DNA of 64,000 bases from Pseudovibrio brasiliensis (lineage in GTDB: Bacteria; Pseudomonadota; Alphaproteobacteria; Rhizobiales; Stappiaceae): the NCBI RefSeq assembly GCF_018282095.1, contig NZ_CP074126.1, positions 2,552,501 through 2,616,500 on the forward strand. The letters run 5' to 3'. The notes beneath the pieces were generated by a model, which made no database searches, was not told the DNA's origin, and saw nothing but the letters and a program-made list of their open reading frames with translations. Position 1 is the first letter of the stretch, and each line of letters begins with the position of its first letter. Both the position numbers and the translations under genes were made by a program. This document shows positions 939-17,643 of this stretch, in pieces.

Positions 939-1014
939 GAGCCCGTAGCTCAGCTGGTAGAGCAACTGACTTTTAATCAGTAGGTCCACGGTTCGAACCC
1001 GTGCGGGCTCACCA
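939..1014 (+). tRNA. tRNA-Lys (anticodon TTT), CCA encoded
   Basis: The cloverleaf is complete. The acceptor GAGCCCG pairs with CGGGCTC, the D arm holds AGCTCAGCTGGTAGAG, the anticodon arm is CTGAC-TTTTAAT-CAG with anticodon TTT, and the T arm contains GGTTCGAACCC. The 3' end is A followed by an encoded CCA. The 3' half from the anticodon arm onward is repeated at 17644-17709, so this gene was very likely the attachment site of the integrated element to its right and was restored on integration. Confidence 0.95.
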
Positions 1015-1035
1015 TTTAACCTCATGGTATATAAA
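970..1035 (+). repeat. Attachment-site repeat at the tRNA-Lys 3' end (left copy)
   Basis: A 66-base stretch starts at the tRNA-Lys anticodon stem and runs through CCA into ATTTAACCTCATGGTATATAAA. It is repeated exactly at 17644-17709. Similarity continues beyond it at a lower level for about 350 bases on both sides. An exact tRNA 3'-end duplication with a tyrosine recombinase inside the right-hand copy is the usual mark of an integrative element. Confidence 0.85.
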
Positions 1036-1049
1036 GAGGTTTAGCAAAG

Positions 1050-1069
1050 CTCCCTCCCGGGAGTTTTTT
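1050..1069 (+). terminator. Rho-independent terminator after tRNA-Lys
   Basis: CTCCC and GGGAG pair around a four-base loop and are followed by TTTTTT, 35 bases after the tRNA. Confidence 0.7.
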
Positions 1070-1343
1070 GCATTTGGGCCTCGTGTCAGCACTATGTCAA
1101 CAAATGAGAGTGTTTCAGAAGCCGACTTTGCTCTCACAATGCCCTCAACATCTTCTCTAGTTTAGCTCTGGAAAAGCTGTGAATGTCGTCCTAGTTGTCA
1201 GCAAACGAGCAAGTCACTTGGGTTGACAGATTACAGAGTTGAAAACGAGCTGTCATAAGTCGTCAGAGCTTCAAGGCAAGCTTACCAAACCGAGCACTTG
1301 TCAAGCCTAGATATCATTAGACTAAAGCCCATTTTTATCGCCT

Positions 1344-1391
1344 TCTTGTAATCAGGGGGGGGTGCGGGTTCGATCCCTGCTGCCGACACCA
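1344..1391 (+). pseudogene. tRNA-Thr(TGT) 3' fragment, first copy
   Basis: CTTGTAATCAGG followed by GCGGGTTCGATCCCTGC and TGCCGACACCA matches the anticodon loop, T arm and acceptor 3' strand of a tRNA-Thr(TGT). There is no D arm or 5' acceptor upstream, so it cannot be a functional tRNA. The bases after it (ACCATTTAACCTCATGGT) are those that follow tRNA-Lys at 1011, so this is a hybrid junction of two tRNA-borne attachment regions. A related copy lies at 18008-18056. Confidence 0.7.
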
Positions 1392-1430
1392 CCATTTAAC
1401 CTCATGGTACATAAAGAGGTTTATCAAAGC

Positions 1431-1454
1431 AAAGCTCCCAATTGGGAGCTTTTT
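1431..1454 (+). terminator. Terminator after the tRNA-Thr fragment
   Basis: AAAGCTCCC, AATT and GGGAGCTTTTT make a symmetric hairpin ending in five Ts. It is related to the terminator after tRNA-Lys. Confidence 0.65.
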
Positions 1455-1901
1455 GCATTTAGACCTCGTGTCAGCGCTATGAAAGCAAATGAGAGCATTT
1501 GAAAAGCGCAATTTCACCCCTCTTTTAGCTCTAGTATTTGCCCTTTCAAATTATGAAAATCAACACTGCAAAGAGAACTTCGAAGTTTTAACTTCGATGG
1601 TCTGTTAGCTGATGCATTTTTAAATGCCAGTTGGCGCTTTGAAGTAACCCAGTAATTAAATTGGATTAGCTACAGAACTTAATTGAAACACCTAGAGTAG
1701 CCGACAAAATATTTTACAAAGAAATATACTAAACTATTATATCGACAAAACTCTAAAACCACGTATTTAAGTAAACTAAATTAATCTAACTCTGCTACTG
1801 CGGGATTTGCTAAATAGTATTCAGAAGTTGCTCTCCAAAATCTGCTCTCCCTATTGTCGGCATGCATATCAATTTCATGCATGCTGCGACAGGAGCGACA
1901 G
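1455..1901. promoter_or_regulatory. AT-rich upstream region of the MNIO cluster
   Basis: About 450 AT-rich bases without a gene lie before the rightward operon. A perfect 12-base palindrome AACTTCGAAGTT sits at 1577-1588, and its half AACTTCGA is repeated at 1590-1597, one base after it. This may be an operator for the rightward operon, but no regulator gene is nearby to support it. Confidence 0.35.
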
Positions 1902-3215
1902 ATGCCACAAGGACAGTTTCAATCTCATCATGAACACAGGCCTGGTGTGATTGCAGGTTTTCTCCCGCGGGACTCAAAGCTTCTGGGGAAGTGGCTGGAT
2001 CATATCAGTAGAAAATCCATATCAGCGTATGGAGAGCAAATTGAACAAGGCTACTCTTTTTTGGAGCCTTCAGTTCAAGCCCTAGCCTTTTTGCTGAATA
2101 AAGACGATCACCTTCATGGTCTTGTAAGCGAGATGATTGAGCAAGGCTGGCAAGTTCACCAAGAAGAACAACCAAAAGTGGCTTATGGAATTAAATCCAT
2201 CAACAATATGCTATGCGCGCTCAATTACATTATCAAACATGCACCAATCTTTGATCCGGACTTGCCGCATTCAGCATTTCCAATGTCAGGATTGTTTGTC
2301 TACATGATGTGGACACCCGCAGGGAACTTTGTCTTTAAAAACAAGCTTTTCAATGATGCCCTGAGAAACATCCTTGATGCCTGGTGTGAGTTTTTAGACT
2401 CTCCGGCCTCACTCAGTGTCGTTGTTACCTCAAAGGATGGTTGGCTTTCTGAAGCCTCATGGAAAGCGAACAGCCTGGATCAGTTCGTTACAAAAGAACA
2501 GATCGAGAAAGACCCTGTGCATTGGGGATACACGTCGTTTAATGACTTCTTCCATCGTCAAATCATTACGATCTGCCGACCAATTGATGGGCCGGACAAT
2601 GATGTAGTGATTACATCTGCTAATGATGGCACCGTTTATCGCATTGCACGTAATGTGAAACTGGACGACGATTTTGAGACGAAAGCCCAAAACTATTCTC
2701 TCAAGCAAATGCTTGACGACAGCCCTCTCACAACGCGCTTTGTTGGCGGAGATGTCGTTCAAACATTCCTGAGTGGCAACGACTATCACCGGTGGAGAGC
2801 TCCCATCACGGGAAAGGTTGTCGAAGCACGAGTCGTTAACGGATACATGTTCTCTGAGCTTTATTCGGAAGGGTTTGATCCATCAGCTGGAACTAAGTCT
2901 CAAGGATATGAGGCGATGGTAAACACCAGGGCACTTATCTTTATCGAGAGCGAAAATCCTGCAATCGGTTGCGTATGCGTTATGCCCATTGGGATCACAG
3001 AGATCTCATCGATCTCAATTCAGGTCAAACTAGGCGATAGTGTTCAAAAAGGACAAGAACTTGGGTGGTTCAGCTACGGGGGATCCTCAATGGCTCTTGT
3101 TTTTCAGCCCAAAGCTATCAAGCAGTTTACGATTGTAAATCCTCTTTCAGATAACAACTCCGACAACGGGCCATTTGTCAGAGTTGGGGCACAAATTGCG
3201 ATCTCAACTACTTAA
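1902..3215 (+). CDS. PsiD-like / phosphatidylserine decarboxylase-family enzyme
   Basis: Predicted 437-residue pyruvoyl-type decarboxylase. The C-terminal half has the core of phosphatidylserine decarboxylases: a VGGDVVQTFLSGNDYHRWRAP segment, a hydrophobic IGCVCVMPIGITEISSI segment, and a GGSS motif at about residues 393-396 in place of the LGST self-cleavage motif. The serine after the second Gly would become the pyruvoyl group. The N-terminal extension of about 150 residues is typical of the PsiD (tryptophan decarboxylase) branch rather than of housekeeping Psd. It lacks a membrane segment. I prefer ATG 1902, with AGGAG at 1891-1895, over an in-frame TTG at 1854. It is first in an operon with the ferritin-like and MNIO genes, so it may decarboxylate an amino acid or peptide C-terminus in that pathway. 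The substrate is unknown. Confidence 0.75.
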   Translation: MPQGQFQSHHEHRPGVIAGFLPRDSKLLGKWLDHISRKSISAYGEQIEQGYSFLEPSVQALAFLLNKDDHLHGLVSEMIEQGWQVHQEEQPKVAYGIKSINNMLCALNYIIKHAPIFDPDLPHSAFPMSGLFVYMMWTPAGNFVFKNKLFNDALRNILDAWCEFLDSPASLSVVVTSKDGWLSEASWKANSLDQFVTKEQIEKDPVHWGYTSFNDFFHRQIITICRPIDGPDNDVVITSANDGTVYRIARNVKLDDDFETKAQNYSLKQMLDDSPLTTRFVGGDVVQTFLSGNDYHRWRAPITGKVVEARVVNGYMFSELYSEGFDPSAGTKSQGYEAMVNTRALIFIESENPAIGCVCVMPIGITEISSISIQVKLGDSVQKGQELGWFSYGGSSMALVFQPKAIKQFTIVNPLSDNNSDNGPFVRVGAQIAISTT

Positions 3216-3299
3216 GTCAGTCGTTGTTTTTCTCTTCAGCGCCTGGCGATAATGAAAACCAACGCTAGGTGTGCTTTCGCCAAACCGAAGGACACAGCA

Positions 3300-5348
3300 A
3301 TGAAACACCCTCTCCTAGAACTGAGCGATAGCGCCTGCGCGGCTCTGGTCGATGCATGCACAGATCGCGACCCAAAGTACATAGATGACGATCTGTCCTG
3401 TGTTAAAGCGATAGCTCAAGCAGCTATCAATGTAGAGTTGTTTACAATCCCCCTCTACATGACGGCGCTGTATTCAGTCCAAGGTACACATCAAATCAAT
3501 AGTAAGGGTAGTAAGCTCTATGAAAGTCGCTGGTGGCCTGGCTCTGGTCCTGCCGCTGACCCTGACACAACAAACAAGCAAGTCTTCAATAAAGTCTACA
3601 GCGTGTTTATTGAAGAGATGCTGCACCTTCAACTCGCTTCAAACATGGCAACTTTGATTGGAGTGCAGCCATGCTTCACAAGTCCAGCCTTACAGAACAA
3701 AGAGTTTGGATGGACCTGCTATAAGCATGGCAACACCATGATTCCGCACATTTTGGATTTTAATAATTGGATAGATCACCCCGTCTTATGTTCATATGAT
3801 CCCGACCTAATGAACTTAAAAGGTATACAAGTGATCCTGCGCGCCATGAACAAAGATCAGGCAAAACTGTTCATGGCAATTGAAGAGACCGTTGAACTCG
3901 CCAAGCTCAATCTGGAGAATTCTGAAGTTCCCATACCTGATCCTCAGCCCGATGGTGATAAGACCCGACCAAAGTACTTTGAACCTGCACCATTTGATTG
4001 GTTCAAAGCCAACATGACGGAAGCAGATCTACCTCTGTTCGGCTCAATTGGGCATATGTACTTATGTTACTGGAGCTACTTTGAAATTACCTACTCAGAT
4101 GGAACCAGTTTGCTTGGGCGTCTCTTAGGCTTACAGCGAGACCGGTTCAATAAGCCTGAACAAACGGCTTCACAATATCCGATGATTGATATGAACCTGG
4201 AAGAGCTCGACAGCCTAAAGCTCAAGCTCATTAACAACATCAATGCAATCACTGATCAGGGTGAAGGCGGGGATGTTGTCAAAGACATTGTGAGGGTTTG
4301 GGGCTTTAAGTCATGGGCCAACACACTTGCAAAAGGCTCAGAAAATCCTCTTGGTTGCGTGAAGGAAAAATTCCAGCCTAACAAAGAAGCATTGATTGAA
4401 GATTATCCTCATTACGATGATCAGGGCAATCAGCTCCCAACGCTATCAGGTATAGCCCGCGCCAGATCTGATGCAGCGGATAAAGACCACTTCGAACTGT
4501 TTTCGGAAGTGCTTCAACTCGTACAAAAGCCTGACTACATGACATGGGAGAAATGGCACAACCAAAACCATACTTGGACACCAGATATGCTTGGTACCGA
4601 TGGAGCCCCCAACGTGCCATGTACTGAAGACATCGCGACAGCGCTCAATAAGTTAAAAACCAAGCGTGATACCCATCAAATATTAAGCCAAGCTGCGGTT
4701 GGGACGATTAAGGGCATCACTACAGTCTTGAACAGCTATTGGAATAATAGCGATAACACCGAATTCCCCTCTCCTGCCATGGATGGGTCTGGCGATCGGG
4801 TTTCTATATGCTGGGCTGTTACCGGAAAAGCGCCAGATCTTGTGACAGGTATTGCTTCACAAAAGGAGCACGTTCTTTACCATGCTTGTCAGGGTATGGC
4901 CTTAAACGGTTCAGATACCGAGACTTGTGCCAGTGTTTTAGCTTACCATAGCTGCAAAGGTTCAAACGAATGTAAGACTCAGGGTGGGTGCGGGTTTGTC
5001 CAAAGTGCCAGCGGTGGAGGTAGCTGTGGGGGTTCCGTTGCCAAAGGTCTAAAGAGCGCACCAGCCGACAATAAATGCGGAGGTTTTGGAGGATGTGCAG
5101 TACCAATTTCAGCCTCTCAGCTTTACCCAAAACAAGACGATGATTGCTATGAGATGCAACTCTATAAGTTTGGACCTGCTCCTGAACATAACTCTGAGCC
5201 GTTGAAGCAACATCTCCCTTACTCTGAAGGGGATGCCGTTTACGACATAGCATGGAAAGCTTACTGTCATGCGAAAGGGCTCGATCCTGAAGCTCATAAA
5301 GCGCCAAAGGCCAATGATTTGCGCCTAGCAATGCCACCAAGCACCTGA
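3300..5348 (+). CDS. Ferritin-like (VioB-type) protein with Cys/Gly-rich C-terminal region; possible MNIO substrate
   Basis: Predicted 682 residues from ATG 3300 (AAGGA at 3288-3292); an in-frame ATG at 3252 has no good ribosome site. Residues ~30-300 are a ferritin-like domain of the type found in VioB, with candidate diiron ligands E46 and an EExxH motif (E105, E106, H109). A middle region of unknown fold follows. Residues 530-616 are Cys/Gly-rich, with Cys at 530, 543, 552, 558, 564, 576, 593, 599 and 616. They include the spaced motif CKGSNECKTQGGC and glycine runs. The next gene, 10 bases away, is an MNIO, and enzymes of that family modify Cys (or Asp) in Cys-rich peptides. I infer that this C-terminal region may be the modified substrate, fused to a metalloprotein rather than to a short leader. 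No leader or signal peptide is visible. Confidence 0.75.
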   Translation: MKHPLLELSDSACAALVDACTDRDPKYIDDDLSCVKAIAQAAINVELFTIPLYMTALYSVQGTHQINSKGSKLYESRWWPGSGPAADPDTTNKQVFNKVYSVFIEEMLHLQLASNMATLIGVQPCFTSPALQNKEFGWTCYKHGNTMIPHILDFNNWIDHPVLCSYDPDLMNLKGIQVILRAMNKDQAKLFMAIEETVELAKLNLENSEVPIPDPQPDGDKTRPKYFEPAPFDWFKANMTEADLPLFGSIGHMYLCYWSYFEITYSDGTSLLGRLLGLQRDRFNKPEQTASQYPMIDMNLEELDSLKLKLINNINAITDQGEGGDVVKDIVRVWGFKSWANTLAKGSENPLGCVKEKFQPNKEALIEDYPHYDDQGNQLPTLSGIARARSDAADKDHFELFSEVLQLVQKPDYMTWEKWHNQNHTWTPDMLGTDGAPNVPCTEDIATALNKLKTKRDTHQILSQAAVGTIKGITTVLNSYWNNSDNTEFPSPAMDGSGDRVSICWAVTGKAPDLVTGIASQKEHVLYHACQGMALNGSDTETCASVLAYHSCKGSNECKTQGGCGFVQSASGGGSCGGSVAKGLKSAPADNKCGGFGGCAVPISASQLYPKQDDDCYEMQLYKFGPAPEHNSEPLKQHLPYSEGDAVYDIAWKAYCHAKGLDPEAHKAPKANDLRLAMPPST

Positions 5349-5358
5349 ACGGGATCAA

Positions 5359-6306
5359 ATGAGTTCATTGACTACATCAGAACACGAGGCCGCAGATTCA
5401 GCGGCTTCCAAATTGAACGAAAATACTAACTATTTAGGATTTGGGGTTGGTCTGCGTTCTCAGCACTTCCCTGAGATTATGGCTTGCGAGAGTTTACCTG
5501 TCGACTGGTTTGAGATCATAAGTGAAAACTTCATCGACAACCACGGATATGGACGGCATGTTCTCAAGGAACTTCGCAGCCGATGCCCGATCGTGATGCA
5601 TGGTGTCTCTCTTAATCTGGGTTCATCAGATCCTCTCAATTGGGAGTACCTTCAAAAACTCAAAGAGCTTGCTGAGTTTGTCCAACCGTCATGGATCTCT
5701 GATCACCTGTGCTGGACAGGCGTGTTTGGGCACAACACTCATGATCTCCTGCCAATGCCACTAACGGAAGAGAGCCTCAACCATGTCGCTGAAAGGGTAT
5801 CACGAGTCCAAGAGTTCCTCGGTCGAACAATCCTGCTTGAGAACCCATCCACCTATCTTGAGTTTCGTCAAAATGAACTGAGTGAGTGGGAATTTTTGTC
5901 GTTGCTCGTCAAAAAAACAGACTGCCTTTTGTTGCTTGATGTAAACAATGTCTTCGTCTCTTCCTTCAATCATGGCTATGATCCTCTGGTGTATCTGAAG
6001 AACATTCCTCACAGCAGCATCCAACAAGTGCATTTAGCTGGTCCTACACGGGCTGGTAACTGTCTGGTGGATACCCATGATCAACCTGTCCCAGATCAAG
6101 TCTGGGAGCTTTACAAAGTACTCCTAGAGAAAACCGGCCCTGTCTCCACGCTACTGGAATGGGATGCAAACATCCCGGGCTTTTCTGAGGTTGTCGCTGA
6201 GTTGAACAAGGCACGGCTCATTTTTGAAGGAAAGCCTTACCAGCAACTGGAAAGTGTCGACATCAATCAAGTACCTAGTGCATTCTCAAGCCCGGTTGTT
6301 CGATAA
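5359..6306 (+). CDS. DUF692 multinuclear non-heme iron oxidase (MNIO; MbnB/TglH family)
   Basis: A 315-residue TIM-barrel enzyme of the DUF692 family, whose characterised members MbnB and TglH use two or three iron atoms to oxidise cysteines in ribosomal peptides. The metal-ligand set is complete: H36, E56 (ISEN), H81 (MHGVSLN), D115 and H116 (SDH), E161 (LEN), D194 and N196 (DVNN), H205, H225 (VHLAG), H240, then E267 and D269 (LEWD). About 25 residues precede the barrel. The gene starts 10 bases after the ferritin-like gene, and its stop overlaps the next start by one base (TAATG), so the three are probably translationally coupled. The family assignment is firm. The reaction on this substrate (oxazolone/thioamide, carbon excision, thiooxazole or other) cannot be predicted. 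Confidence 0.92.
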   Translation: MSSLTTSEHEAADSAASKLNENTNYLGFGVGLRSQHFPEIMACESLPVDWFEIISENFIDNHGYGRHVLKELRSRCPIVMHGVSLNLGSSDPLNWEYLQKLKELAEFVQPSWISDHLCWTGVFGHNTHDLLPMPLTEESLNHVAERVSRVQEFLGRTILLENPSTYLEFRQNELSEWEFLSLLVKKTDCLLLLDVNNVFVSSFNHGYDPLVYLKNIPHSSIQQVHLAGPTRAGNCLVDTHDQPVPDQVWELYKVLLEKTGPVSTLLEWDANIPGFSEVVAELNKARLIFEGKPYQQLESVDINQVPSAFSSPVVR

Positions 6307-7157
6307 TGAAGGAAAGTTGTCTAAAGAAAGATATCCAACTAAGGCAACTACAAAACTGGCTACAGGAGGTATTGATAAACCGTGGTGACCTCTTTCAAAA
6401 ACTCTTAGGAGCTCAGCACCAAACAAACCTTACCCTCGAAGAGACCATAAAAGAGACGGAACAGTTTCCTGCAATTGAGCGCATCAACATTTATGCGTCA
6501 GGATACATTATGCGCTTGGTCGAAGCGTTAAAGACAGAGTATCCGCTGCTATGTAAGTTCACGGGAGAGGAAGTCTTTGAAGGTTTCGCAAAGGCATACA
6601 TTGTCACCCACCCTTCGCGTTACACCAGCCTATATCAGTTAGGAGCGAAACTCCCTGAATTTCTTGAGGAAACTCAACCGAAGGGAGCAAACTGCCCTGA
6701 TCAAGTCGCCCTATTTAAAATCCCAGCTGAGTTGGCGCGATATGAGAGAACGCAGGCCGAGATACTGCTCCATTACGGTCTTGAAGAGTATATTTATTCC
6801 ACTTCAGAAACGTCCATCGCCTTTCTGACATCAATCCACTCTGAGCTATTACAAGCATCGCCATGCCTAAGAATTCTCAAGCTAGAGTACCCGATCCGTT
6901 CACTGGCCGTGTCACTTCATTTGAACGAAACCGTGATAACGCCACAGCGAACTGAGAACTGGATAGCTCTCACGCGAAAAGACTACAAGATCGTTTCGTT
7001 GCAAATTAATGATTGGCAGGCTGAGTTGTTGGAAGCTTTGAAGTCTCCAACGCCCCTTTATCGAGCGCTGGAAAATGTTAAATCTGCCAATATGGCTGAA
7101 GTTTTGCTTTGGCTTCCAACTGCACTGGATTTTGGATTGGTCTATTACCCAAAATAG
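6306..7157 (+). CDS. DUF2063-domain partner protein of the MNIO
   Basis: A 283-residue protein with an N-terminal helical DUF2063 domain (residues ~10-110: LQNWLQEVL, an IYASGYIMRLVEALKTEYP segment and HPSRYTSLYQLG). The domain was first annotated as DNA-binding. The same partner type stands beside many DUF692 genes, where it binds the peptide and presents it to the MNIO (MbnC/TglI role). It overlaps the MNIO stop by one base. The C-terminal ~150 residues are less recognisable. I infer substrate recognition for the MNIO rather than DNA binding. Confidence 0.8.
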   Translation: MKESCLKKDIQLRQLQNWLQEVLINRGDLFQKLLGAQHQTNLTLEETIKETEQFPAIERINIYASGYIMRLVEALKTEYPLLCKFTGEEVFEGFAKAYIVTHPSRYTSLYQLGAKLPEFLEETQPKGANCPDQVALFKIPAELARYERTQAEILLHYGLEEYIYSTSETSIAFLTSIHSELLQASPCLRILKLEYPIRSLAVSLHLNETVITPQRTENWIALTRKDYKIVSLQINDWQAELLEALKSPTPLYRALENVKSANMAEVLLWLPTALDFGLVYYPK

Positions 7158-7162
7158 ACCAA
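7137..7162. terminator. Hairpin between the two converging operons
   Basis: TTGGTCTATT and AATAGACCAA pair around six bases and span the stop codon of the DUF2063 gene. The left-going and right-going operons end 11 bases apart here. There is no T run, so this is a weak or bidirectional stop at best. Confidence 0.4.
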
Positions 7163-7168
7163 TCTCAA

Positions 7169-8089
7169 CTACATAAACAAAGCATAGTTTTGCTCGCCCA
7201 GTCTGTATGGAATAATTTGCGATACACCTGTTGCCGCGGTAACAGTTGCTTCTGTTGTCCATCCCATGCAATCGCCGTGGACGCGATTTAGAGTCACCTC
7301 ACCATTACTTGCCATATACGTTATAAAGTAAGGGTCACCCGGCCCAACCATAAATGGATGTACAATATCCAACTCCTGATCATCCTTCAGATGTAAGTGT
7401 GATCCGACCTCATTGGTTCCTTCGCTTAAATCATCCGAGAAATGATCAATATTGACGTTCGGTTTCCATGTATTTGTTTTCAGGAAGAAATTTTCTTTGC
7501 CCCAGGTAAAGAAGGCAAAACGTGTCCATCCTTTTGCCCATTGGTGAGCCCAGACATTTTCTACGACAAGCGGAGGGCTTTTCCCACCGGACTTTGCCGT
7601 GGCTGATATCGTCCAAGTATTAACAGAACCATCTGTATGGTTGTAGCCAAACACAAAATTCTGCCCCAGATCGACAGCACATTTTACTTCACTCAGGTTC
7701 GTCGTATAGGGATAGCGTGTATGATAGAAATGCAAAGGATACTCGGATTTTAGATCCTTCGTTAAGGGGAAGAAATACATGTGCCCGTTTTTAGCCTGAT
7801 AGGCGAGCAAATGAGGCTTATTCATCATGTAAAACGGCTGAATTGAATCCCAGTCTTTGCCAAGCTCAAGTGTATTAGGCACTTGCTTGATCCAAGGTTC
7901 TGCTTCAAGAAGCTCGAATGTGTCACAATTTCCGCTGCCCTTATGGTATCCGACGAGGATCATGGTGCCATAATTGTCGTAGGTTGTCAGAGCGTCATAG
8001 GATTGACTAAATGCTGGCTGTCCGACCTCAGACCATTCCATTACGCCAGCTTGTTGAGTTGGCGTCATCGTGTAAAGAGTTGCAGTCAT
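7169..8089 (-). CDS. Probable beta-propeller protein of unknown function
   Basis: 306 residues, rich in aromatic and beta-forming residues, with no signal peptide or membrane segment. Short repeated blades of the pattern hydrophobic-hydrophobic-x-Y/A-x-x-x-(D/N)-G-x-hydrophobic-x-hydrophobic can be seen: LVGYHKGSGNCDTFEL, LLAYQAKNGHMYFFPL, VFGYNHTDGSVNTWTI and ITYMASNGEVTLNRV. This suits a lectin- or tectonin-like propeller. It is the last gene of the leftward operon, 12 bases after the phosphoesterase stop. I do not recognise the family. A binding role, for example for a glycan or the cluster product, is only a guess. Confidence 0.5.
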   Translation of the reverse strand: MTATLYTMTPTQQAGVMEWSEVGQPAFSQSYDALTTYDNYGTMILVGYHKGSGNCDTFELLEAEPWIKQVPNTLELGKDWDSIQPFYMMNKPHLLAYQAKNGHMYFFPLTKDLKSEYPLHFYHTRYPYTTNLSEVKCAVDLGQNFVFGYNHTDGSVNTWTISATAKSGGKSPPLVVENVWAHQWAKGWTRFAFFTWGKENFFLKTNTWKPNVNIDHFSDDLSEGTNEVGSHLHLKDDQELDIVHPFMVGPGDPYFITYMASNGEVTLNRVHGDCMGWTTEATVTAATGVSQIIPYRLGEQNYALFM

Positions 8090-8101
8090 TATTCCCGTCT
8101 C

Positions 8102-9613
8102 CTAGCGTATCTCTTCGCTGTAAATTTTGAGGGGAGCCGGATCAGCGCCGGCGACTTGATAATAAGTGCAGTGGGCAGGCTGCCCTGCTCCGTTCAACTT
8201 CAAAATCTCAAATCCGCGATTGTACCACTGCTCAACCAACTGGAGTTGCGTGCCCGGTATTATGGGAACCGGGTTCACTTCTGCATAAGGCATTTCCTTC
8301 TCCTGTACCGGAATCGCTGAATGACCGATGCAGCGCCCCTTTGCGAGTGTCTTCAAAGGATTGTCAGGTTCTGAGCTATTGAGAGGCCAGCCAGTGGGTC
8401 TGAAGTTATCTTCAAAGATACAAAGGTTATGCTCATGCCCCCAAAACCATGCTGCAACCTTATCAAAATATGGTCCGAAGGCTTGCCATAGCGCAGTGTT
8501 CACTCCGGGCCGATTGATGTCGCCGTCATAGTCTGGGGCCACACCTACAGTAAAGCGGCCAGAGTAAAGCTGATGGTGGCCGAACAAGAGCGTACGGCCA
8601 GAGAACTGGCTGAGGTGGTGACGGTGCCAATCTACTTCATCAGAGCGCACATACACCATAGGTGGTGGGTTCTGAGGGTCATATGCATCACGAGGGTTAA
8701 CGTGGAGATCTCCCAGAGCCTCATCCAACTTGTCACCAGCCACTTTCAGATAGTGTCCATGATACCCAGTATCCATGCCAAGGATTTGCCAGGCTTCATC
8801 CTCGCTGGTGAGACGGAAATAGCTTGCTTGTTGTTGCTGATGGGGATGGTTTACGAGCCGGCCTTCATCAAGACACCTGAAATAGGGAAATGCACCACAA
8901 AAGTACTCATGATTGCCTGGAAGCGTATAGACGGGCGGGCGGTGTCCAGTGGCTGTAAATGCTGCATTAAGGAGACCAAGGAAGTAGGTATCAAACTCAT
9001 GTTCTGTTCCAGAATAATAGACGTCGCCTACGTGTAGGATGGCATCTGGTTTGAATGAGAGTGCAGAAGTTAGAACAGCAGCAGCCACATCTGTTCCTGT
9101 TCCGATATCACCAATCAGGGCAATGGTGGCATCCGAAGGAAGTTGCCAGCTCACGCAACCATAATCATAGCTCCCTCCTCCATACTCAGGATCTCGCCAA
9201 CTCCGGTAATCTAACTTGCCGCCTGAGTGTCCCGGATAGGTCCAGAAGTATTTGACATACTCATCAAACATCTGTTGCCAGGCCGGATTGCCAAAGGTGA
9301 AATCATCAAGCTGCACCTGCATCTGCGCTTCAATTTGCTTATTACCGCTAAAAACTGCGTGTGCTTTATGATGCATCAGATATGCAAGATATGCTGCTGC
9401 TTCCGGGTCATTCGCATTTCGAGTGGTCGGAACCGAAGGTGCCTTTCCTGCCAAAGCCTTATGTGCATATGCATCCACCCCATCCAGCATCGGGTGAGCA
9501 ACTGGAACCCCTTGGCGAGGATCATGATCCGTCATTCTTGAAACAACATTAGCTGCAGCTGATTTCAACCGAGCCAGATCCGCATTCTCATAATTGACAA
9601 TGGGCTGCATCAT
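8102..9613 (-). CDS. Calcineurin-like metallophosphoesterase
   Basis: 503 residues. The C-terminal two thirds hold every metallophosphatase motif in order: GDIG (D169), GDVYYSG (D197), PGNHEY (N234, H235), FGHHQ (H346) and GHEH (H393, H395), all needed for a dinuclear metal centre. About 160 residues of unknown function precede them. No signal peptide is visible, so it is probably cytoplasmic. Its start overlaps the stop of the upstream gene by four bases (ATGA). The substrate could be a phosphodiester or monoester such as a nucleotide. Its neighbours, a nucleoside-phosphorylase-like and a possible glycosylase-like protein, hint at nucleotides, but this is inference. Confidence 0.8.
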   Translation of the reverse strand: MMQPIVNYENADLARLKSAAANVVSRMTDHDPRQGVPVAHPMLDGVDAYAHKALAGKAPSVPTTRNANDPEAAAYLAYLMHHKAHAVFSGNKQIEAQMQVQLDDFTFGNPAWQQMFDEYVKYFWTYPGHSGGKLDYRSWRDPEYGGGSYDYGCVSWQLPSDATIALIGDIGTGTDVAAAVLTSALSFKPDAILHVGDVYYSGTEHEFDTYFLGLLNAAFTATGHRPPVYTLPGNHEYFCGAFPYFRCLDEGRLVNHPHQQQQASYFRLTSEDEAWQILGMDTGYHGHYLKVAGDKLDEALGDLHVNPRDAYDPQNPPPMVYVRSDEVDWHRHHLSQFSGRTLLFGHHQLYSGRFTVGVAPDYDGDINRPGVNTALWQAFGPYFDKVAAWFWGHEHNLCIFEDNFRPTGWPLNSSEPDNPLKTLAKGRCIGHSAIPVQEKEMPYAEVNPVPIIPGTQLQLVEQWYNRGFEILKLNGAGQPAHCTYYQVAGADPAPLKIYSEEIR

Positions 9614-10359
9614 ATGTCCACGGTCCTATAAAGCTGAATATTGAGGCTGTTTGGTGCTGTCATCGGTATCCCGCTCCAGTCCCCCCAAAGTCCATGCCCA
9701 AGTTCATAATGCTTAGAGACCTGATCCAGCCACGTTGTGGTGATGCTCTTCAAAGGAGCAAAGCAATTTGGATTACCCTCTCCTTTGCCCCAAAGCGCCC
9801 AAGCAACAATGTAGCTTTCCCCTACACACAACAATCCGCCTTCTAAACCGCTTACTGACTGCAAGCTCTTTGCCCATTGAAGCGTTTGAGTTCGAAACAA
9901 CTCGGGAGAGATGTTGTGGTTGCGAGCGCCAATATAGTGCACCACATCACCGGACATCCAATCAGCTGGAGCATCGATCAGGAAGTAAGGTGTTTCGGGC
10001 TGCAGATCCTTCTCAGGGAGTTGGATTGGAAACTCAGCAGCACTGCGCGATATATCGTAAAGATCACCGTGCAAATTCGTATAGCAGCGCACAGCAACAC
10101 ATTTGAAAGCGTCGTGATAAGTTTGCTGCGAAGTCCAGAACATCAACGCGCTTTGATCGGGCACTGTTGGTGGTTTGCCCTCATGTTTCGGCAACGAAGG
10201 TATGTATGCATGTAACCCTGCATTGGGCTGTAACAATGAGCAGCCCGGTACAAATACAGATCCCAGAAACTCTTCAAACTGTTGCTGAGTTTTATCTTCG
10301 CTCCGAAATCCGCGCCAGACATGCACAGCATCGGGAGGAACTTTACGAATTTCATTCAT
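9610..10359 (-). CDS. Unknown protein, tandem paralogue B
   Basis: About 249 residues from ATG 10359 (an in-frame TTG lies at 10365). It is clearly related to the next gene upstream: both begin with PPDAV-(H/R)-(V/I)-WRGFR, followed by F..RLG..F(I/V)P-like text, an FW(T/N)SQQTY segment, a FPI segment and YLID. They look like a gene duplication. The N-terminal half might form an alpha/beta (ABM- or ferredoxin-like) fold, but I cannot name the family. There is no signal peptide, membrane segment or obvious metal motif. The gene sits mid-operon, overlapping both neighbours (4 and 8 bases). Confidence 0.6.
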   Translation of the reverse strand: MNEIRKVPPDAVHVWRGFRSEDKTQQQFEEFLGSVFVPGCSLLQPNAGLHAYIPSLPKHEGKPPTVPDQSALMFWTSQQTYHDAFKCVAVRCYTNLHGDLYDISRSAAEFPIQLPEKDLQPETPYFLIDAPADWMSGDVVHYIGARNHNISPELFRTQTLQWAKSLQSVSGLEGGLLCVGESYIVAWALWGKGEGNPNCFAPLKSITTTWLDQVSKHYELGHGLWGDWSGIPMTAPNSLNIQLYRTVDI

Positions 10360-11092
10360 TCTCAAAAGCCCTCGTGAACTTCATATTGTAAGTGTCACCG
10401 GGCTTTACTTTCATGCCTGGCCAGTCGTCCCAAAGGGCTGCTTGCGGTGGCAGTGTTGTCGGAACTGGTTCAAAGACGTGAGACCAGTCACAATGTGATT
10501 GCAACTGATCAAGTCCAGGATCAGTGCCATCTCCCAGCTCCCAATACGTGATGTAGTCCGCGCCGACGCAGATGATGCCACCTTGTATTTTCCCGCGCAC
10601 TTGCGTTTCAACAAGGATACTTTGCAGGTTCTGAAACAACTCTGCTGTATTAGCACCAGCTGGTAAACCGCCCACCAGATGCCTTATCTTGCCCTTCATC
10701 CAGTCCTGAGACTTGTCGATAAGGTAGTAGCACTGGTCCAACACCAAATCTCCGTCAAACAAGATTGGGAAGTCAGCACCACTTTCCGGGGTGTAGCAAC
10801 CACCGTGGGTCAGTGTGTAAGTACGGCCTGCCAGTGTCTTGAAACCATCCCAATAGGTCTGCTGGGAGTTCCAAAACAAAATTGCAGTTTCATCAGGGAC
10901 AGTCGCAGGCTTTTGGGCCATGCCACATGGAATGGTGGGAACATATGTGTCCAGCCCATTCTTGATCTGCATCTGTACAGTTGAGGGAATGAATGTTTCT
11001 CCAAGTCTTTGAAAAAACTCTTCTTGTGGAAGTGTGGACTGGCGAAAACCTCGCCATATCCGGACAGCATCAGGAGGTATCTGGTAGGACAT
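10352..11092 (-). CDS. Unknown protein, tandem paralogue A
   Basis: 246 residues starting MSYQIPPDAVRIWRGFR. It is a paralogue of the downstream gene, sharing about a third of residues by eye, including TVPDE/QxA(I/L)(L/M)FW.SQQTY, FPI and YYLID-x-x-x-DWM. A good ribosome site (GGAGGAG) lies before ATG 11092, which is 3 bases after the upstream stop. The family is not recognised. Keeping two copies side by side suggests a heterodimer or two related substrates. That is speculation. Confidence 0.6.
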   Translation of the reverse strand: MSYQIPPDAVRIWRGFRQSTLPQEEFFQRLGETFIPSTVQMQIKNGLDTYVPTIPCGMAQKPATVPDETAILFWNSQQTYWDGFKTLAGRTYTLTHGGCYTPESGADFPILFDGDLVLDQCYYLIDKSQDWMKGKIRHLVGGLPAGANTAELFQNLQSILVETQVRGKIQGGIICVGADYITYWELGDGTDPGLDQLQSHCDWSHVFEPVPTTLPPQAALWDDWPGMKVKPGDTYNMKFTRAFENE

Positions 11093-11095
11093 GGA

Positions 11096-12817
11096 TCACA
11101 CTCCTCCCGACAGGATCTGGTCAGTCACCTGATTTAGGAAACCAATTGGGAGTGGCTTTTCCTCTGGTTTGCCATAGGGGCAACCGAGAGGAAATTTCCA
11201 ATGTTCATTGACACAGAACTGGCATGGACCAGCTGAACGGGACAGGTAGTCTCCTGCGTCATTCCATGTCAACTTGCCTTCTCGATACATATATCCAAGC
11301 ACATCAGCCATGGTGGCGTGAGCATCGTAGAAGCTCTTTTTCAGATCTGGCCACACATCAGGCCAACTGGTCTTTATAACCTTCAGAATTTGCGGTGCAT
11401 TTTCTGAAGAGAACTGAAAGGCATCATATCCATCACCATTCCCGGGAACATATGTAATTTCGGGATTGGTCTTCAAGTAACGCACGCATTCAGGAGACTT
11501 TTCATCCAGTTCAGAGAGCCATTCAGGTCTCAACCGGAACTGCGGTAGGAAGTTCGTGTCGTAAGAAAAATGCGGCGTTACAACGATACGGGTGTTGATC
11601 GTATAAGATTCACCATCGATCTCAGTAGAGAACTCAAACATGGTCGGATTGTCATTCTCAGTGGTGAGCGAAAACAGTGTAAATGCGTTGTCATAAGGAT
11701 CTGTCGGTAGTTCAGGTGAGCGCTTTATGTGTTCCTTGAAGGCATCTCGGAACATATCCCAAGAACTTTCCCCCACGAGAAACAGAACAGCTGGATTTGT
11801 CATAACCAACTGCTTGAGCGCCCATGCATTTTTAGTCACGCAGTTGGAGATGATTGTGTCTTCACTCTCCTCGGATCCCCCCAAGAAGGCAGGTTTCCAA
11901 TGAGGAGATGCACAAGCCACCATATCTAACTGGCAGACATCTTCACCGATCTTCAGGTCTGCGCCCCTATGACCTTTAGCCCGTAAATAGTCTGAGAACT
12001 CATTGAGACTTGGAACAAACTGCTCATAGTAAGTCTGTAGTTCCTGATAAACCTCGAGCTTAACACCAGCAGGCATTTGCATCTTGGAGATGATTATGTC
12101 GCCTTTTTCGAACTTATTATCCGGGCTATCGTGATTGAAAAGCAGCACATAACGAGGAGTTCCGGTAGGACGCTCTAATGTAAGTGTAACTTCAGTGCCA
12201 TTCTCATATTCAATGATCACGTCATAAGGAGAACCAGCGTGATCCCGCTCAGCAGATTTAATTATTCCATCTTCTGCTGCGAAAACCTGGTCTGCTACAA
12301 CTGTTGTATCTACTGTCGGGGTAACGGAACTTCCTAAAATTAGGTACTTTTTGACCTCTTCAAAGGCGAAGCGTTCTTGATAAACATTACGATAGCGATA
12401 GTAATAGGCATACTTGTCATAGCCATCAGTTCCATCATCACTGGTAAAATCAGGGTAAGCCCAGGACGTCCCAGTAATTCCAGGACTAAACGCAGTCAGG
12501 TTTGGGTTAATCCCAAGAGTCATGATTGGCGCTTTTCGGCAACCATCCATAATCTCGCCATTCGGGAAACCAGAGTTGCGTGTAATTCCTTTCACCCATG
12601 GATACATCTCTGGTGTACCGACAGGATCTGCTGTTTTGGGGAAGTCTGACAAAAAATCATAGGTTGGATATGGGCCGTAAACTTGATCCTTGGGGTTTGA
12701 AGGCCAGAAGAATGAACAAGTGCCGCAAGGACGTACATTAAAGACCAGCTCAATCTCCATGGGGTTCTTTGGCTGGCGCGGACTGGTTTGCCGCGGTGGC
12801 GTATAAGAACTGGTCAT
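11096..12817 (-). CDS. Cys-rich protein with faint uracil-DNA-glycosylase-like features
   Basis: About 573 residues from ATG 12817; the start shares one base with the upstream stop (TGATG). Near the N-terminus is CGTCSFFWP, then LGINPNLTAFSPG, later CQLDMVACASPHW, PAVLFLVGESSWDMF, TPHFSY, and near the C-terminus PCQFC and GCPYGKP. The order G-I-N-P / V-x-C-A-S / hydrophobic-LVGESS / TPHFS is reminiscent of Fe-S uracil-DNA glycosylases (catalytic GxxPG-like loop, strand with V-G, and HPS loop). The paired cysteines could hold a cluster. A central insertion of about 130 residues (roughly 12,100-12,350) looks like a beta-rich module. This is a weak motif match by eye, and the family may be new. 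Confidence 0.4.
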   Translation of the reverse strand: MTSSYTPPRQTSPRQPKNPMEIELVFNVRPCGTCSFFWPSNPKDQVYGPYPTYDFLSDFPKTADPVGTPEMYPWVKGITRNSGFPNGEIMDGCRKAPIMTLGINPNLTAFSPGITGTSWAYPDFTSDDGTDGYDKYAYYYRYRNVYQERFAFEEVKKYLILGSSVTPTVDTTVVADQVFAAEDGIIKSAERDHAGSPYDVIIEYENGTEVTLTLERPTGTPRYVLLFNHDSPDNKFEKGDIIISKMQMPAGVKLEVYQELQTYYEQFVPSLNEFSDYLRAKGHRGADLKIGEDVCQLDMVACASPHWKPAFLGGSEESEDTIISNCVTKNAWALKQLVMTNPAVLFLVGESSWDMFRDAFKEHIKRSPELPTDPYDNAFTLFSLTTENDNPTMFEFSTEIDGESYTINTRIVVTPHFSYDTNFLPQFRLRPEWLSELDEKSPECVRYLKTNPEITYVPGNGDGYDAFQFSSENAPQILKVIKTSWPDVWPDLKKSFYDAHATMADVLGYMYREGKLTWNDAGDYLSRSAGPCQFCVNEHWKFPLGCPYGKPEEKPLPIGFLNQVTDQILSGGV

Positions 12818-13980
12818 CACTTGCCCTTTCCAGTGCCTGTTTGTCCCTTCAAATCACTATCAGCTACTATGGTTCCCCAGGTGAGCAGAGCACCATTCAT
12901 GGAAGTATAGAAGCCATAGTGCTCATAGATCTCACTGGACCAGTTCTCGCGCAGCTCTTGCGGGATTGGCTTGCCTGAAGGTGTTTGTGTGGGAATTACA
13001 GTGTCAGACATATTGCGGACGAATACATAATCAACGTGATACTCTCCGGCAGCATAACCAACGACAGCATCATCCATCTCCAGCGCACTATACTGCTCGG
13101 TATCCTCCCCATCTGAGATGAAGTAATAGTCAGTCGTGAGGAGCGGAATGCCTTTCTTATCAAGACCTTTAGGTGCCCCTAGATCTTCAAGTGCCGGATT
13201 CATCATGTCTGCAACAGTGAACTGCCCTGCCCAGTCAGGATTACCTTTGTCTGAATCGTAAATTGCCTGGCACAGAAGGTACTCCAGATAAGGCTGCGTT
13301 ACGACGGAACTCAACTTAAAGAGCAGATTTTTCTCAATAATTGAGTTCATTGAAAGGTCTGGATACCAGCTGGTGCAAGCTACTGTTTTGTCATTCAGTC
13401 CAGAGCTTGTGTTCTCTGGCAGTTTCAGTTTGATTTTGCCGGTGTTCGTGATTGCTGCATCGCCCAGTTTTTCACTTATAGTTGCTCCGCCAGCAGTACC
13501 AATTGAGTAGAGACGTTCAGGAGTTGCTTCCTTGAGTACGAAGTGCACCATGGCAATCAAGCCATCAGCATAGGGTGGATGTGAAAGATGTGCGTCTGAT
13601 TTCCAAAGCAGTATCTTCAAATCAATTCCAGCGGCATTTTTGACAGTGACGACCCGATAGAAGCCCCAAAGGTTGTACGCTCCTTTCACATACTCATCGC
13701 TGGACCGTAAAAACCAACCTTTTCGGAACTCATCAGATGAGACATAAGCCTCCTTGTCAGAAGACACGAACACGTGGTCCAACGCATTCCACTCAGTGTC
13801 TGTCCAAGTCATCACAACAATGTCCACCTTTGGGAGTGGCGCGTCCTTGTCTGGATTGCCGATATCTACGTTTACGGGAGCACTTTGCCTAACCTTCGCC
13901 CAGTTGATAACCGGCAGCGGAGGCAAAGCTCCAGGGCTGGTGCAAGCTACACTCCGAGAGTCCGTGTAACGGTTTTTCAT
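12817..13980 (-). CDS. Nucleoside-phosphorylase-superfamily-like protein
   Basis: 387 residues. Elements of the PNP/MTAN fold appear in order: VDIVVMTWTDTEWNAL (an N-terminal strand with D/E as in nucleosidases), LYSIGTAGG, LGDAAITNTGKI, an LEMDDAVVGYAA segment (E-M-D/E ribose-binding motif) and FVRNMSD (R-x-x-S-D base-binding motif). Such enzymes split or phosphorolyse nucleosides or S-adenosyl-homocysteine-like compounds. The first ~50 residues are an extension of unknown role. A strong AGGAGAGG precedes ATG 13980. It is the second gene of the leftward operon. The exact substrate is not predictable. Confidence 0.6.
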   Translation of the reverse strand: MKNRYTDSRSVACTSPGALPPLPVINWAKVRQSAPVNVDIGNPDKDAPLPKVDIVVMTWTDTEWNALDHVFVSSDKEAYVSSDEFRKGWFLRSSDEYVKGAYNLWGFYRVVTVKNAAGIDLKILLWKSDAHLSHPPYADGLIAMVHFVLKEATPERLYSIGTAGGATISEKLGDAAITNTGKIKLKLPENTSSGLNDKTVACTSWYPDLSMNSIIEKNLLFKLSSVVTQPYLEYLLCQAIYDSDKGNPDWAGQFTVADMMNPALEDLGAPKGLDKKGIPLLTTDYYFISDGEDTEQYSALEMDDAVVGYAAGEYHVDYVFVRNMSDTVIPTQTPSGKPIPQELRENWSSEIYEHYGFYTSMNGALLTWGTIVADSDLKGQTGTGKGK

Positions 13981-13993
13981 AGCTAGGCCTCTC

Positions 13994-15157
13994 CTAAGCG
14001 TTTTGATTTATGAAACGGGGACCGTAAAAGACTGGTTCTGATAAGTCCGTGTAGTGCGCCATGATCTTGGCTTCATCACCGTAGAGTTCTGGTAGTCTTG
14101 CAATCAGATTTGCTGGGATCTGCGAGCGCATGATGTTAAAGCAGGAAAGCACACGTAAGTCCGTCATTGCTGCTACGGCCTTGCCAAATGTTGGCCAGGA
14201 TTCTTCTGCTGGGCCGTTCCACATCAGATTCAGATCTGTCATGATCTCAGTGTATTTAGTATCAAATGCGTCCAGGTTGCGTTTGACTGCCTCTCCCTCT
14301 GAATCAAGCTCGAGAAGTTTCTCGTAACCATCACGTGGAACAGCGAGTACATTGGTCACGTTTGGCCACGGTATTTTGTGACCTTTGAAAAACTCTGTTT
14401 CTGTCTCAGGTGTTAGTTTGGGTTCCGGAGTTGGAACGAGAAGCTGCGCGCCATAGTAGATCTCCGCAAAACGTGCGTAATGGCTGCCCTCCCCATCAAA
14501 GTTCTGCGCATAAAGATCCTGAGCATTGCTTCCTTCACCCTGCTCAATGATCTCGTCAATACCATCAAGGAACTGCTGAACAGGTGTTCGTTTATCCTCA
14601 ATGGAAAAGACAGTGAAGCCAATATTGTCTCCAACCTGATTGGGATAGGTATTGGCCGGAGTTGAGAGAACTTTTTTCGCGGTGGCATTTATCTCATCTG
14701 CATTCGCCGAGATTGCAGTTTTGATTTTCGAGTAGAATGCACCAATCGAAGGGTACTTCTCATCTTTGTATTTTGCAGCTAACAGACTGATTGGAGTTTC
14801 AAGTCGTAAGAAATTCTGCAGCTGGTTCTTGCTAAGCTGCGCAAAAACAACCGGGAGATCTGGCTCCACACCACCTGGCAATCCTTCAGATGGAGAAAGT
14901 GGATCCAACTTCTTAATCGAAGGCTTTTCTCCGAGTGCAGCCAGTATATTACACCCGATGGCCATATGAACCATCTCTTCCATCACGACAGAGCGAATCA
15001 GGTTGTAAGTTGTGTAGTTTTGAACCTCTAAGGAAAACATCGCCGCCAGATAAAGCGGCAATGTTGCATGTTCCAAAGCAACGGCTGACTGAAGCGATGC
15101 CTTAATCCATTCTAGGTCTCGATCTTGCGGGGGAACTGATAGCAGCTGTTGGTCCAT
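13994..15157 (-). CDS. Ferritin-like protein (VioB-type domain)
   Basis: 387 residues. The N-terminal ~240 form a ferritin-like domain: LEHATLPLYLAAM gives ligand E29, and VVMEEMVHMA gives the EExxH motif (E60, E61, H64). Later glutamates (around EIIEQGEG) could complete a diiron site. It is distantly related to the ferritin-like half of the gene at 3300 but lacks the Cys-rich tail. It is first in the leftward operon, with AGGGAGG just before ATG 15157. It may be a diiron oxidase acting on the cluster product, as the VioB family joins oxidised amino acid units. That is inference. Confidence 0.8.
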   Translation of the reverse strand: MDQQLLSVPPQDRDLEWIKASLQSAVALEHATLPLYLAAMFSLEVQNYTTYNLIRSVVMEEMVHMAIGCNILAALGEKPSIKKLDPLSPSEGLPGGVEPDLPVVFAQLSKNQLQNFLRLETPISLLAAKYKDEKYPSIGAFYSKIKTAISANADEINATAKKVLSTPANTYPNQVGDNIGFTVFSIEDKRTPVQQFLDGIDEIIEQGEGSNAQDLYAQNFDGEGSHYARFAEIYYGAQLLVPTPEPKLTPETETEFFKGHKIPWPNVTNVLAVPRDGYEKLLELDSEGEAVKRNLDAFDTKYTEIMTDLNLMWNGPAEESWPTFGKAVAAMTDLRVLSCFNIMRSQIPANLIARLPELYGDEAKIMAHYTDLSEPVFYGPRFINQNA

Positions 15158-16061
15158 AGGTGGCCTCCCTCTGATAGCAAAAGTAATGCATACGAGAAAA
15201 GCCGCACCGTTCTTCTTCGAGGATGACTAGTCATCCTTGAACAAAGCAAATTTCCTTGAGCTGGGTGCATTCTTTTCACGTAGCCGGAAATTGTGCTTGC
15301 AAAATACGTGACTTCAAAAATATAAATCAATCATGCAATTGGAATGTGATAGTTATGACAGTTTTTACATTGTGTTAATTTCAAATAATTCACCCTTAAG
15401 AGCTTACACGCTTCTATTAATTGGCTAATTTATTTTAGGTCACCTTGGATCTTTAAGAAAACTATCTTGTGGCGCTAAAAAAGATTAAATGTGTTCAACT
15501 GTAAGATTCAAAAATTCGTGAAAGCATTATGGTTTGCTCGGAAACGCACTTGGTATTTTGAAGAAGCAGAGCCAACAGAAGAACTTTGAAGACTGCAATC
15601 ATGGCTCGAAGTCTAACTACACTACATTACTTCCACTTGATGGAACAGGCCATGCTCGGTACTGGACGCTTCGGACCTCAGCTGGTTTTAGCAACCGGGT
15701 GCATAGCGTTGAGAGCCTCGAGTGCGCGGTTTGTTGGATCATTGAAACATAGGCACGGCCAACCTCTTGAGTATCATCCACCAAATACGAGAATTCAAAG
15801 CCAGTCTCTTAGGCTGCACCACCTCAGCGCATGGAAAAGATCACTAAAGAGCCGCAGTTGGCTCCAAGGGGATTGCTGGTTCCTCGTCTAACTAACTTTG
15901 ATTGAACTTATCCTACAAAATAGCATGTACTTAAAATCGGTATTTGAAGCTAACATGTCCTCCAAATTCGCTCGTTTTCGATTATCAGGTTTTGGTCAAA
16001 AGCCTCATACGGTGCTCGCAAATACCCAAATAGATACCTTAAAACGCCTGTTGCCGATTTT
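15158..16061. other. Non-coding region between the leftward operon and the integrase
   Basis: About 900 bases. The first ~350 are AT-rich and presumably hold the promoter of the leftward operon. The open frames around 15534-15891 have no recognisable family or ribosome site and may be decayed sequence. I see no clear RNA gene or repeat here. Confidence 0.45.
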
Positions 16062-17312
16062 TCACTCCTCTCCTTGCAATCCTGCTTCAATCCGTTCACC
16101 AATCGCCTCTGACAGCACCCGGATTGGATGGGCATCATGGTTCACATAGCGATTGGTGATGGTCACGTTGCGGTGGCGCAGGAGGTGACTGATGAGGAAG
16201 GCGTTGCTGCCTGCTTGAGCTGCGAAGGTGCCAACCGTGTGGCGAAGATCGTGAATACGAACATCAGGAATATTGGCATGGATGCGGATGCGCTGCCATG
16301 CATTCTCAATGACTTCAATCGAAATAGGTTGTGTCGGATCTTTACAGCCGGGCAACACATAAGGTGAACCATCCACTCGTGGGAATTCAGAGAGGATTTC
16401 GATGGCACTGCTACTTACCGGATGAGGTTTACGTTCATCTCCTTTTCTTGAAGGCAGTGCAAACGTGGCCAATTCAAAATCAATATGCTTCCATTTCAGG
16501 GTTGCAATTTCACTCAAACGCGCACCGGTGTAAAACAGCAGGCGTAAGCAACAAAGAGCTCTTGGATTCACAGGTGTCTTCCGCTTTGCAGCATCCTTGG
16601 GCAAGTGCTTGGCTGTTCTCTTCCCGGCTTTTATGATCCAGGGAAGACCTTCCTGATCTGCCAGCTCAAGGGTACGCCCCAGTCTTTGCAGCTCTTCCTC
16701 TGACAGGAAACGATCACGCTCGTTTTCCTTGTACCGCTTGACCAACCGAACCGGGTTGCTGTGCTCTGGCCTTAGGCCCCATACTTCAGCGAGATTGAAC
16801 GCCTTAGATAAGACCGCCAGAACTTGATTAGCTTGACGAGGTGTTGCTCTCAACGCGTGGTGCAGCTTTGCAATATCCTGCCGCCTGACAGAGCTGAGTT
16901 TCATATGCCCCAGCCTTGAACGAACACACCGTCTTAAGAGGCGTTCAATGTCTTTCATTGTCTTGGGCTTATTGTGCACCTGCACATGTTTGCTCATGTA
17001 AACATCAAGAAGAACATTCACCGTGGGAGCAATTCGTTTGTTTTCCCGCTTTAGCAAGGGATCATCTCCGTTACGGACTGTTGCTAGCACGTTGGTCGCC
17101 AGGCCTCTGGCTTGATCAGGTGTCAACTCACCATATTTACCAAGGCTCATACGACGAGAGCGGCCTTCATGTGTGCGATATTGCACAACGAGTGTTTTTG
17201 CACCGCTTGGCATCACTTGAAGGCCAAACCCTTTAAGCTTGCTATCCCAGAGGAAATGTTTTTTGCTGGTTGGCTTGGCAGCATCCACCGTTCGCTTCGT
17301 TAAGTTCGGCAC
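16062..17312 (-). CDS. Tyrosine recombinase (integrase) of the integrated element
   Basis: About 416 residues. The N-terminal arm-binding domain (DUF4102-like: LTKRTVDAAKP, FLWDSKLKGFGLQV, RSRRMSLGKYGELTPDQAR) precedes a SAM-like core-binding region and a catalytic domain with TGARLSEIATLKW (Arg), HDLRH (His-x-x-Arg), a LLRHRNVTITNRYV segment and the nucleophile Tyr. This is the P4-type architecture common to tRNA-targeting islands. The most likely start is GTG 17312, seven bases after GGGAGAGG; an open frame extends to GTG 17357. The gene reads away from the right attachment copy at 17644. All key catalytic residues are present, so the enzyme may be active. Confidence 0.92.
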   Translation of the reverse strand: MPNLTKRTVDAAKPTSKKHFLWDSKLKGFGLQVMPSGAKTLVVQYRTHEGRSRRMSLGKYGELTPDQARGLATNVLATVRNGDDPLLKRENKRIAPTVNVLLDVYMSKHVQVHNKPKTMKDIERLLRRCVRSRLGHMKLSSVRRQDIAKLHHALRATPRQANQVLAVLSKAFNLAEVWGLRPEHSNPVRLVKRYKENERDRFLSEEELQRLGRTLELADQEGLPWIIKAGKRTAKHLPKDAAKRKTPVNPRALCCLRLLFYTGARLSEIATLKWKHIDFELATFALPSRKGDERKPHPVSSSAIEILSEFPRVDGSPYVLPGCKDPTQPISIEVIENAWQRIRIHANIPDVRIHDLRHTVGTFAAQAGSNAFLISHLLRHRNVTITNRYVNHDAHPIRVLSEAIGERIEAGLQGEE

Positions 17313-17357
17313 AGGCACACCTCTCCCGCTGACGGCTCGTGACAAGAGCCACCACAC

Positions 17358-17643
17358 ATATGAAAATGTCAGTTGAAATCCGTTCCCGTTTGCCGCTGTT
17401 TCTGACGGCCTGACAGCTTGTGACGACCTTTAGGGCTTTCTTTTAGGACCTGTGTAAAACACCACCCAAACCGTCATAGGTCAAAAACGAACTGCTTGCC
17501 GTTCTGTGTCAGCACTATGTAAGCAAATGTATGAGATTGAGGACGAAAAGTAAGGTAAGCAAACGCAAATAATTTTCTACAACTATTTGATTCATAGTAA
17601 TGAATCGCTCTTTATCGTAAATGAGCGTTCTATGCTGAAGCGC
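17358..17643. promoter_or_regulatory. Integrase upstream region with a copy of a recurring 25-base motif
   Basis: The 17507-17531 copy of TGTCAGCACTATGTAAGCAA-ATG lies upstream of the integrase start. The same motif follows each tRNA or tRNA fragment nearby (1084, 1469, 17751 and 18125). Its place beside the recombinase gene and attachment sites suggests a recombinase or directionality-factor binding site, or a regulatory leader. Confidence 0.4.

Follow-up and report, generated by a model that had tools for sequence, protein, structure and literature searches.

A cysteine-rich loop within a ferritin-like protein as the probable substrate of a bufferin-maturase-type MNIO in Pseudovibrio brasiliensis

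Published MNIO-DUF2063 pairs convert cysteine residues to 5-thiooxazoles, yielding products that bind copper (PMC13097082; PMC12452194), and the described pairs with known products act on peptides or small proteins. The locus analysed here raises the question of what such an enzyme acts on when the gene directly before it encodes a ferritin-like protein of 682 residues. In the window (the whole stretch of Pseudovibrio brasiliensis DNA analysed, 64,000 nucleotides), three genes follow one another on the plus strand: the ferritin-like gene (3300-5348; 682 aa from ATG 3300, or 698 aa from ATG 3252, the start of the longest frame in the ORF listing); an MNIO (DUF692) gene of the bufferin-maturase type (5359-6306), separated from the ferritin-like stop by ten bases; and the gene of a DUF2063 partner (6306-7157), which overlaps the MNIO gene by one base, 6306. 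The ferritin-like protein matches PF12902 (66.4 bits; cut-off 22.3), an assignment that its fold bears out; the MNIO matches PF05114 (351 bits; cut-off 25) and the NCBIfam model NF050167, MNIO_BufB (354.1 bits; cut-off 310); and the product of the gene directly after it matches PF09836 (59.6 bits; cut-off 27.2) and scores 37.2 bits against the NCBIfam HvfC equivalog model, under the cut-off of 142. The open reading frames and family scores confirm the originally predicted layout of ferritin-like, MNIO and DUF2063 genes with a one-base overlap.

The layout recurs widely. We scanned a genome collection with two patterns, both drawn from the ferritin domain, the Cys segment contributing none, and kept the best 80 of 119 relatives, which, together with the window, L011 (Pseudoalteromonas), L016 and L017, make up 84 loci, including one duplicate (L016 and L084 are one contig). 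The best 80 span Pseudomonadota, Bacteroidota, Acidobacteriota and Actinomycetota, two of the lineages having been looked up. At 83 of the 84 loci the ferritin-like gene is followed, on its own strand, by MNIO and DUF2063 genes, with scores of at least 359 bits for the MNIO and at least 69 for the DUF2063 protein against search profiles built from 3 and 4 seeds, and at the sole exception, L075, the sequence stops at a contig end. A gene-family comparison finds the three genes in 75, 51 and 61 loci, figures that are low because a basic gene caller masked some genes behind overlapping frames, and the next commonest family in 14 of 84. A PSD-like gene upstream in the window (ATG 1902, listed from TTG 1854, to 3215) was rejected as a member of the unit: it accompanies the unit at six of the 84 loci (the window, L018, L019 and L026, all Pseudovibrio; L020, an alphaproteobacterial MAG; and L030, Aureivirga). 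The original prediction of an operon spanning 1902-7157 thus holds for the three genes at 3300-7157, and the PSD-like gene falls outside the conserved unit. The occurrence of this gene beside the unit in both L030, a member of the Bacteroidota, and L020 suggests transfer of a four-gene block.

The ferritin-like protein is present in 4 of 61 genomes comprising the organism's own and its relatives, all of one genus, and in 3 of 385 genomes of the class; its identity to the proteins of three Pseudovibrio relatives is 97, 94 and 79%. Two plasmid records, both from Pseudoalteromonas, encode it, and the phage records searched gave no match. In the window the unit sits in a tRNA-Lys island (939-17709) with the tRNA-Lys itself at 939-1014, a 66-base direct repeat from the tRNA end at 970-1035 and 17644-17709, and an integrase-like gene, named by eye, at 16062-17357 (minus strand), a setting that fits the finding that 4 of 16 searched genomes of this genus carry the unit. 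Blocks of the island are common to the three other Pseudovibrio carriers, and in one of these (L008/L019) tRNA-Lys adjoins the unit. A second cluster, on the minus strand at 7169-15157, adjoins the unit and is in large part common to other Pseudovibrio carriers; it includes a metallophosphoesterase gene (8102-9613, minus strand), genes for two similar proteins of 251 and 246 aa and for proteins without a Pfam match, and a gene for another PF12902 protein (13994-15157, minus strand) with 3 Cys in its frame and no MNIO of its own.

The ferritin-like protein has three parts, all encoded on the plus strand: a ferritin-like body that matches 3hl1 (residues 16-515; 3345-4844); a Cys-rich segment predicted to be disordered (residues 530-600; 4887-5099), recognised by conservation, model and motif; and a folded C-terminal part of a hairpin and helices that ends in PPST (residues 605-682; 5112-5345), recognised by model and conservation. 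The nine Cys predicted between residues 530 and 616 are present, at 530, 543, 552, 558, 564, 576, 593, 599 and 616. Six of them (C530, C552, C558, C564, C593 and C599) are invariant in 84 of 84 loci, so that the case of a homologue without the core Cys, which would have told against the proposal, does not arise among them; C576 is kept in 81, C543 in 72 and C616 in fewer than 15, and, outside the nine, C140 is kept in 83 and C504 in 73. Because six of nine Cys are invariant and the Cys share is 4.9% from residue 516 on vs. 1.15% before, the enrichment is more than chance. The first two exact patterns that we tried occur in 70 and 83 of the 84 loci. In the body, E46, E106, H109, E195 and H397 are kept in 84 of 84, and the terminal PPST is invariant in 83 of 83 proteins (L075, cut off, left out). 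The AlphaFold model places the segment, disordered, between the 3hl1-like body and the folded C-terminal hairpin, and the loop is disordered both in the model of the whole protein and in that of residues 489-682 alone, the latter having a mean pLDDT of 50.6, too poor for a fold search. Thus, the Cys-rich "end" of the original prediction is a real Cys-rich segment, but it is not the terminus: the hairpin, a helix and PPST follow it. Foldseek returned no convincing match besides 3hl1. A named domain for the segment was rejected, the whole protein being without an NCBIfam match, the BufA2 model included, and residues 500-682 having none at E <= 10 and a best Pfam E of 0.24. A stand-alone Cys domain was likewise rejected: a search of 398 phylum genomes gave three matches, two of them full ferritin-like genes and the third (G781; 24.8 bits) a frame with an internal stop and no MNIO match within its 3.3 kb.

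Because selection of the 80 best full-length matches is biased towards genes with the Cys end, control draws of PF12902 genes matter. In draws from 289 class genomes and 398 phylum genomes, MNIO and DUF2063 genes adjoin the PF12902 gene in four of four cases with a Cys segment (the window, L016, L168 and the divergent L166), and the other 19 PF12902 genes, among them three weak, partial matches (L169-L171), lack any MNIO match at E <= 1 within flanks of 0.8 to 12.3 kb a side. Two of these 19 PF12902 proteins, L135:6560-8560 and L164:4686-7070, carry fused Cys-rich tails with no MNIO nearby; Cys-richness alone therefore does not bring an MNIO. By their motif, these tails resemble CDGSH iron-sulfur domains. 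The divergent protein of L166 (2062-6040, minus strand; a 744-aa frame with 21 Cys, before MNIO and DUF2063 genes) has a Cys-rich end of its own kind, a second form of the same idea. A search of 78 genomes of the order met this form in none of the other 77, where the one further match (G496) is a plain PF12902 protein, and the Cys part of the L166 protein has no match in plasmids.

The MNIO has the metal-site motif residues H81, D115, H116, E161, N162, D194, N197, H225, D238, H240 and E267, and all 83 of the 83 linked MNIOs keep every one of them; these are presumably the metal ligands, the motifs aligning to those of solved MNIOs (3bww), and the full ligand set that had been predicted is, on that reading, in place. 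In a midpoint-rooted tree of 67 MNIOs, for which 36 were selected among the 84 loci and the comparison sequences only among relatives of this genome, the 36 ferritin-linked enzymes form one clade (97/89), the L166 enzyme joins next (98/94), and then a group of four (93/86), three with BufA2 adjoining and the fourth (L099) beginning at a contig end. A 100/100 branch divides the ferritin-linked clade from the 26 BufA1-linked MNIOs; the genome of the window encodes a second MNIO, which adjoins a BufA1-type precursor. Three genes upstream of MNIOs at other loci encode true BufA2 (NF050166; 81-92 bits, cut-off 60). The motif C-x-G-x-N-x-C-x3-G occurs in 82 of the 84 ferritin loci (L016 and L084, which are the same contig, lack it) and, elsewhere in 21,743 frames (2.35 million residues, duplicates included), only in the three BufA2 and in 14 further ferritin-like copies or homologues; a comparison of profiles links the Cys segment to BufA2 weakly (probability 49%, 25 columns). 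The residue that follows the putative catalytic Asp, which by comparison with 3bww and the description in PMC13097082 would be position 250 of FonB, is Ala in 81 and Gly in 2 of 83 linked MNIOs vs. Asp in 4 of 4 of the BufA2 group (BufA1-linked MNIOs: Asn in 17, Ala in 8 and Ser in 1 of 26), and substrate recognition is therefore not simply that of BufA2. Only C552 and C558 among the invariant Cys commonly precede a basic residue, and such a scarcity would suit an MNIO site without Asp. The results on co-occurrence, Cys invariance, the BufA2 motif and MNIO kinship support the proposal that the Cys-rich part of the ferritin-like protein is the MNIO substrate.

A separate short precursor co-occurring with the MNIO would have told against this proposal. 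Profiles of 5 and 3 sequences found no BufA1- or BufA2-type precursor gene at E <= 0.01 in the 84 loci. The 21 small Cys-containing ORFs near the operon were rejected as precursors: most of them overlap longer genes, in a different frame or on the other strand, and a comparison limited to ORFs of at least 70 aa shows no family of small Cys-containing ORFs that recurs across the loci. These results bear on an alternative that we consider unlikely, namely that the ferritin-like protein works alongside the MNIO as an oxidase, a source of iron or a tailoring enzyme, that the MNIO precursor is unlinked, and that the Cys have a structural role, as ligands of zinc or an iron-sulfur cluster or as disulfides. 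Some genes before MNIOs are indeed regarded as enzymes, not as precursors, in PMC12452194, and E46, E106, H109 and E195 are kept in 84 of 84, so the ferritin-like body is probably an active metal site; however, the Cys contexts fit BufA2 spacing, the Cys region is predicted to be disordered, PF12902 genes without the Cys segment are also without an MNIO, and within the 84 loci, to which this last point is confined, there is no BufA-type precursor. Less likely still, to the point of being improbable, is that the body is a large leader from which the modified segment is cut out as a free bufferin-like peptide: the segment resembles the free BufA2 core in spacing and is predicted to be disordered, hence accessible, but it lies between two folded stretches that are both conserved (the ferritin-type residues are kept in 84 of 84 and the final four residues in 83 of 83), and since no further gene family occurs in more than 14 of the 84 loci, there is no sign of a dedicated protease or exporter.

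We conclude that, as judged from sequence, the three genes probably make a post-translationally modified metalloprotein, in which the MNIO would oxidise Cys within the chain and no peptide would be freed. In the ferritin-like protein, a flexible Cys loop resembling that of BufA2 would join the helical body to the folded C-terminal hairpin; the DUF2063 protein would present it to the MNIO; the MNIO would oxidise several of the invariant Cys of the loop, with 5-thiooxazole the likeliest product, as in characterised MNIO-DUF2063 pairs; and the modified loop, remaining in the chain, would bind a soft metal, copper or another, close to the di-metal centre of the ferritin-like body. We infer 5-thiooxazole chemistry on the intact ferritin-like protein from kinship with published MNIO-DUF2063 pairs, for which products other than 5-thiooxazole are still conceivable (PMC13097082), and the metal and function of the modified loop are suggested on the same conditional footing. 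More tentatively, at somewhat less than even odds, the protein would define a widespread class of intact ferritin-like metalloproteins, each bearing within its chain a cofactor loop of MNIO-made thiooxazole (or a related group), and this loop would act together with the di-metal site to exchange metal or to catalyse redox reactions. If the proposal is true, the outcome of MNIO chemistry would be a permanent cofactor of the protein and no released peptide; this cofactor would be a new one, genetically encoded and protein-borne. A unit kept across four phyla suggests the same MNIO chemistry inside a folded metalloprotein. With only three genes, the unit is also a compact, cloneable system for the question, posed in PMC12452194, of whether MNIOs modify bona fide proteins.

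The original picture of MNIO substrates as short peptides or small Cys-rich proteins needs one correction: long or fused substrates have already been proposed (PMC12452194). According to the same source, DUF2063-type partners go with signal-peptide precursors; the ferritin-like family has a DUF2063 partner and, judged by eye, no hydrophobic N-terminal stretch and hence no apparent signal peptide, and would therefore be an exception to that pattern. Signal-less, long proteins encoded before MNIOs have been collected there, so the ferritin-like family may figure, unnamed, among its tables; the word "ferritin" is absent from its main text, supplements aside. PF12902 genes are described near lodA-like genes in fungi (PMC4417212). 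The ferritin-like/MNIO pairing appears in no paper among the matches listed, the scope being that of literature other than subscription journals, preprint servers and supplements.

Among known systems, captophorins (PMC13097082) share with the present unit an MNIO with a DUF2063 partner and several Cys in small-residue contexts; however, they are described as peptides with MNIO-made 5-thiooxazoles, whereas the ferritin-like protein has 682 aa and its modification is proposed. The TIGR04222 proteins and the MerC-bufferin, Buf1-cytochrome-FGE and Buf_EGKCG-EF-hand proteins described in PMC12452194 are likewise large, with a Cys-rich part, beside an MNIO, that is suspected of being modified, but none of those described is ferritin-like. 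The Caulobacter ferritin-like protein CC_0557 (3hl1) corresponds to the body, and the match stops at residue 515, leaving the Cys loop and hairpin outside. BufA2 is small (about 100 aa) and has a signal peptide (PMC12452194), in contrast to the ferritin-like protein, and its MNIO differs at the selectivity site; yet the BufA2/BufB/BufC system (NF050166) has the same gene order of precursor, MNIO and DUF2063 as the ferritin unit, BufA2 and the ferritin-like Cys loop have C-x-G-x-N-x-C-x3-G and C-x5-C-x5-C spacing in common, and the BufA2-linked MNIOs form the clade neighbouring that of the ferritin-linked enzymes.
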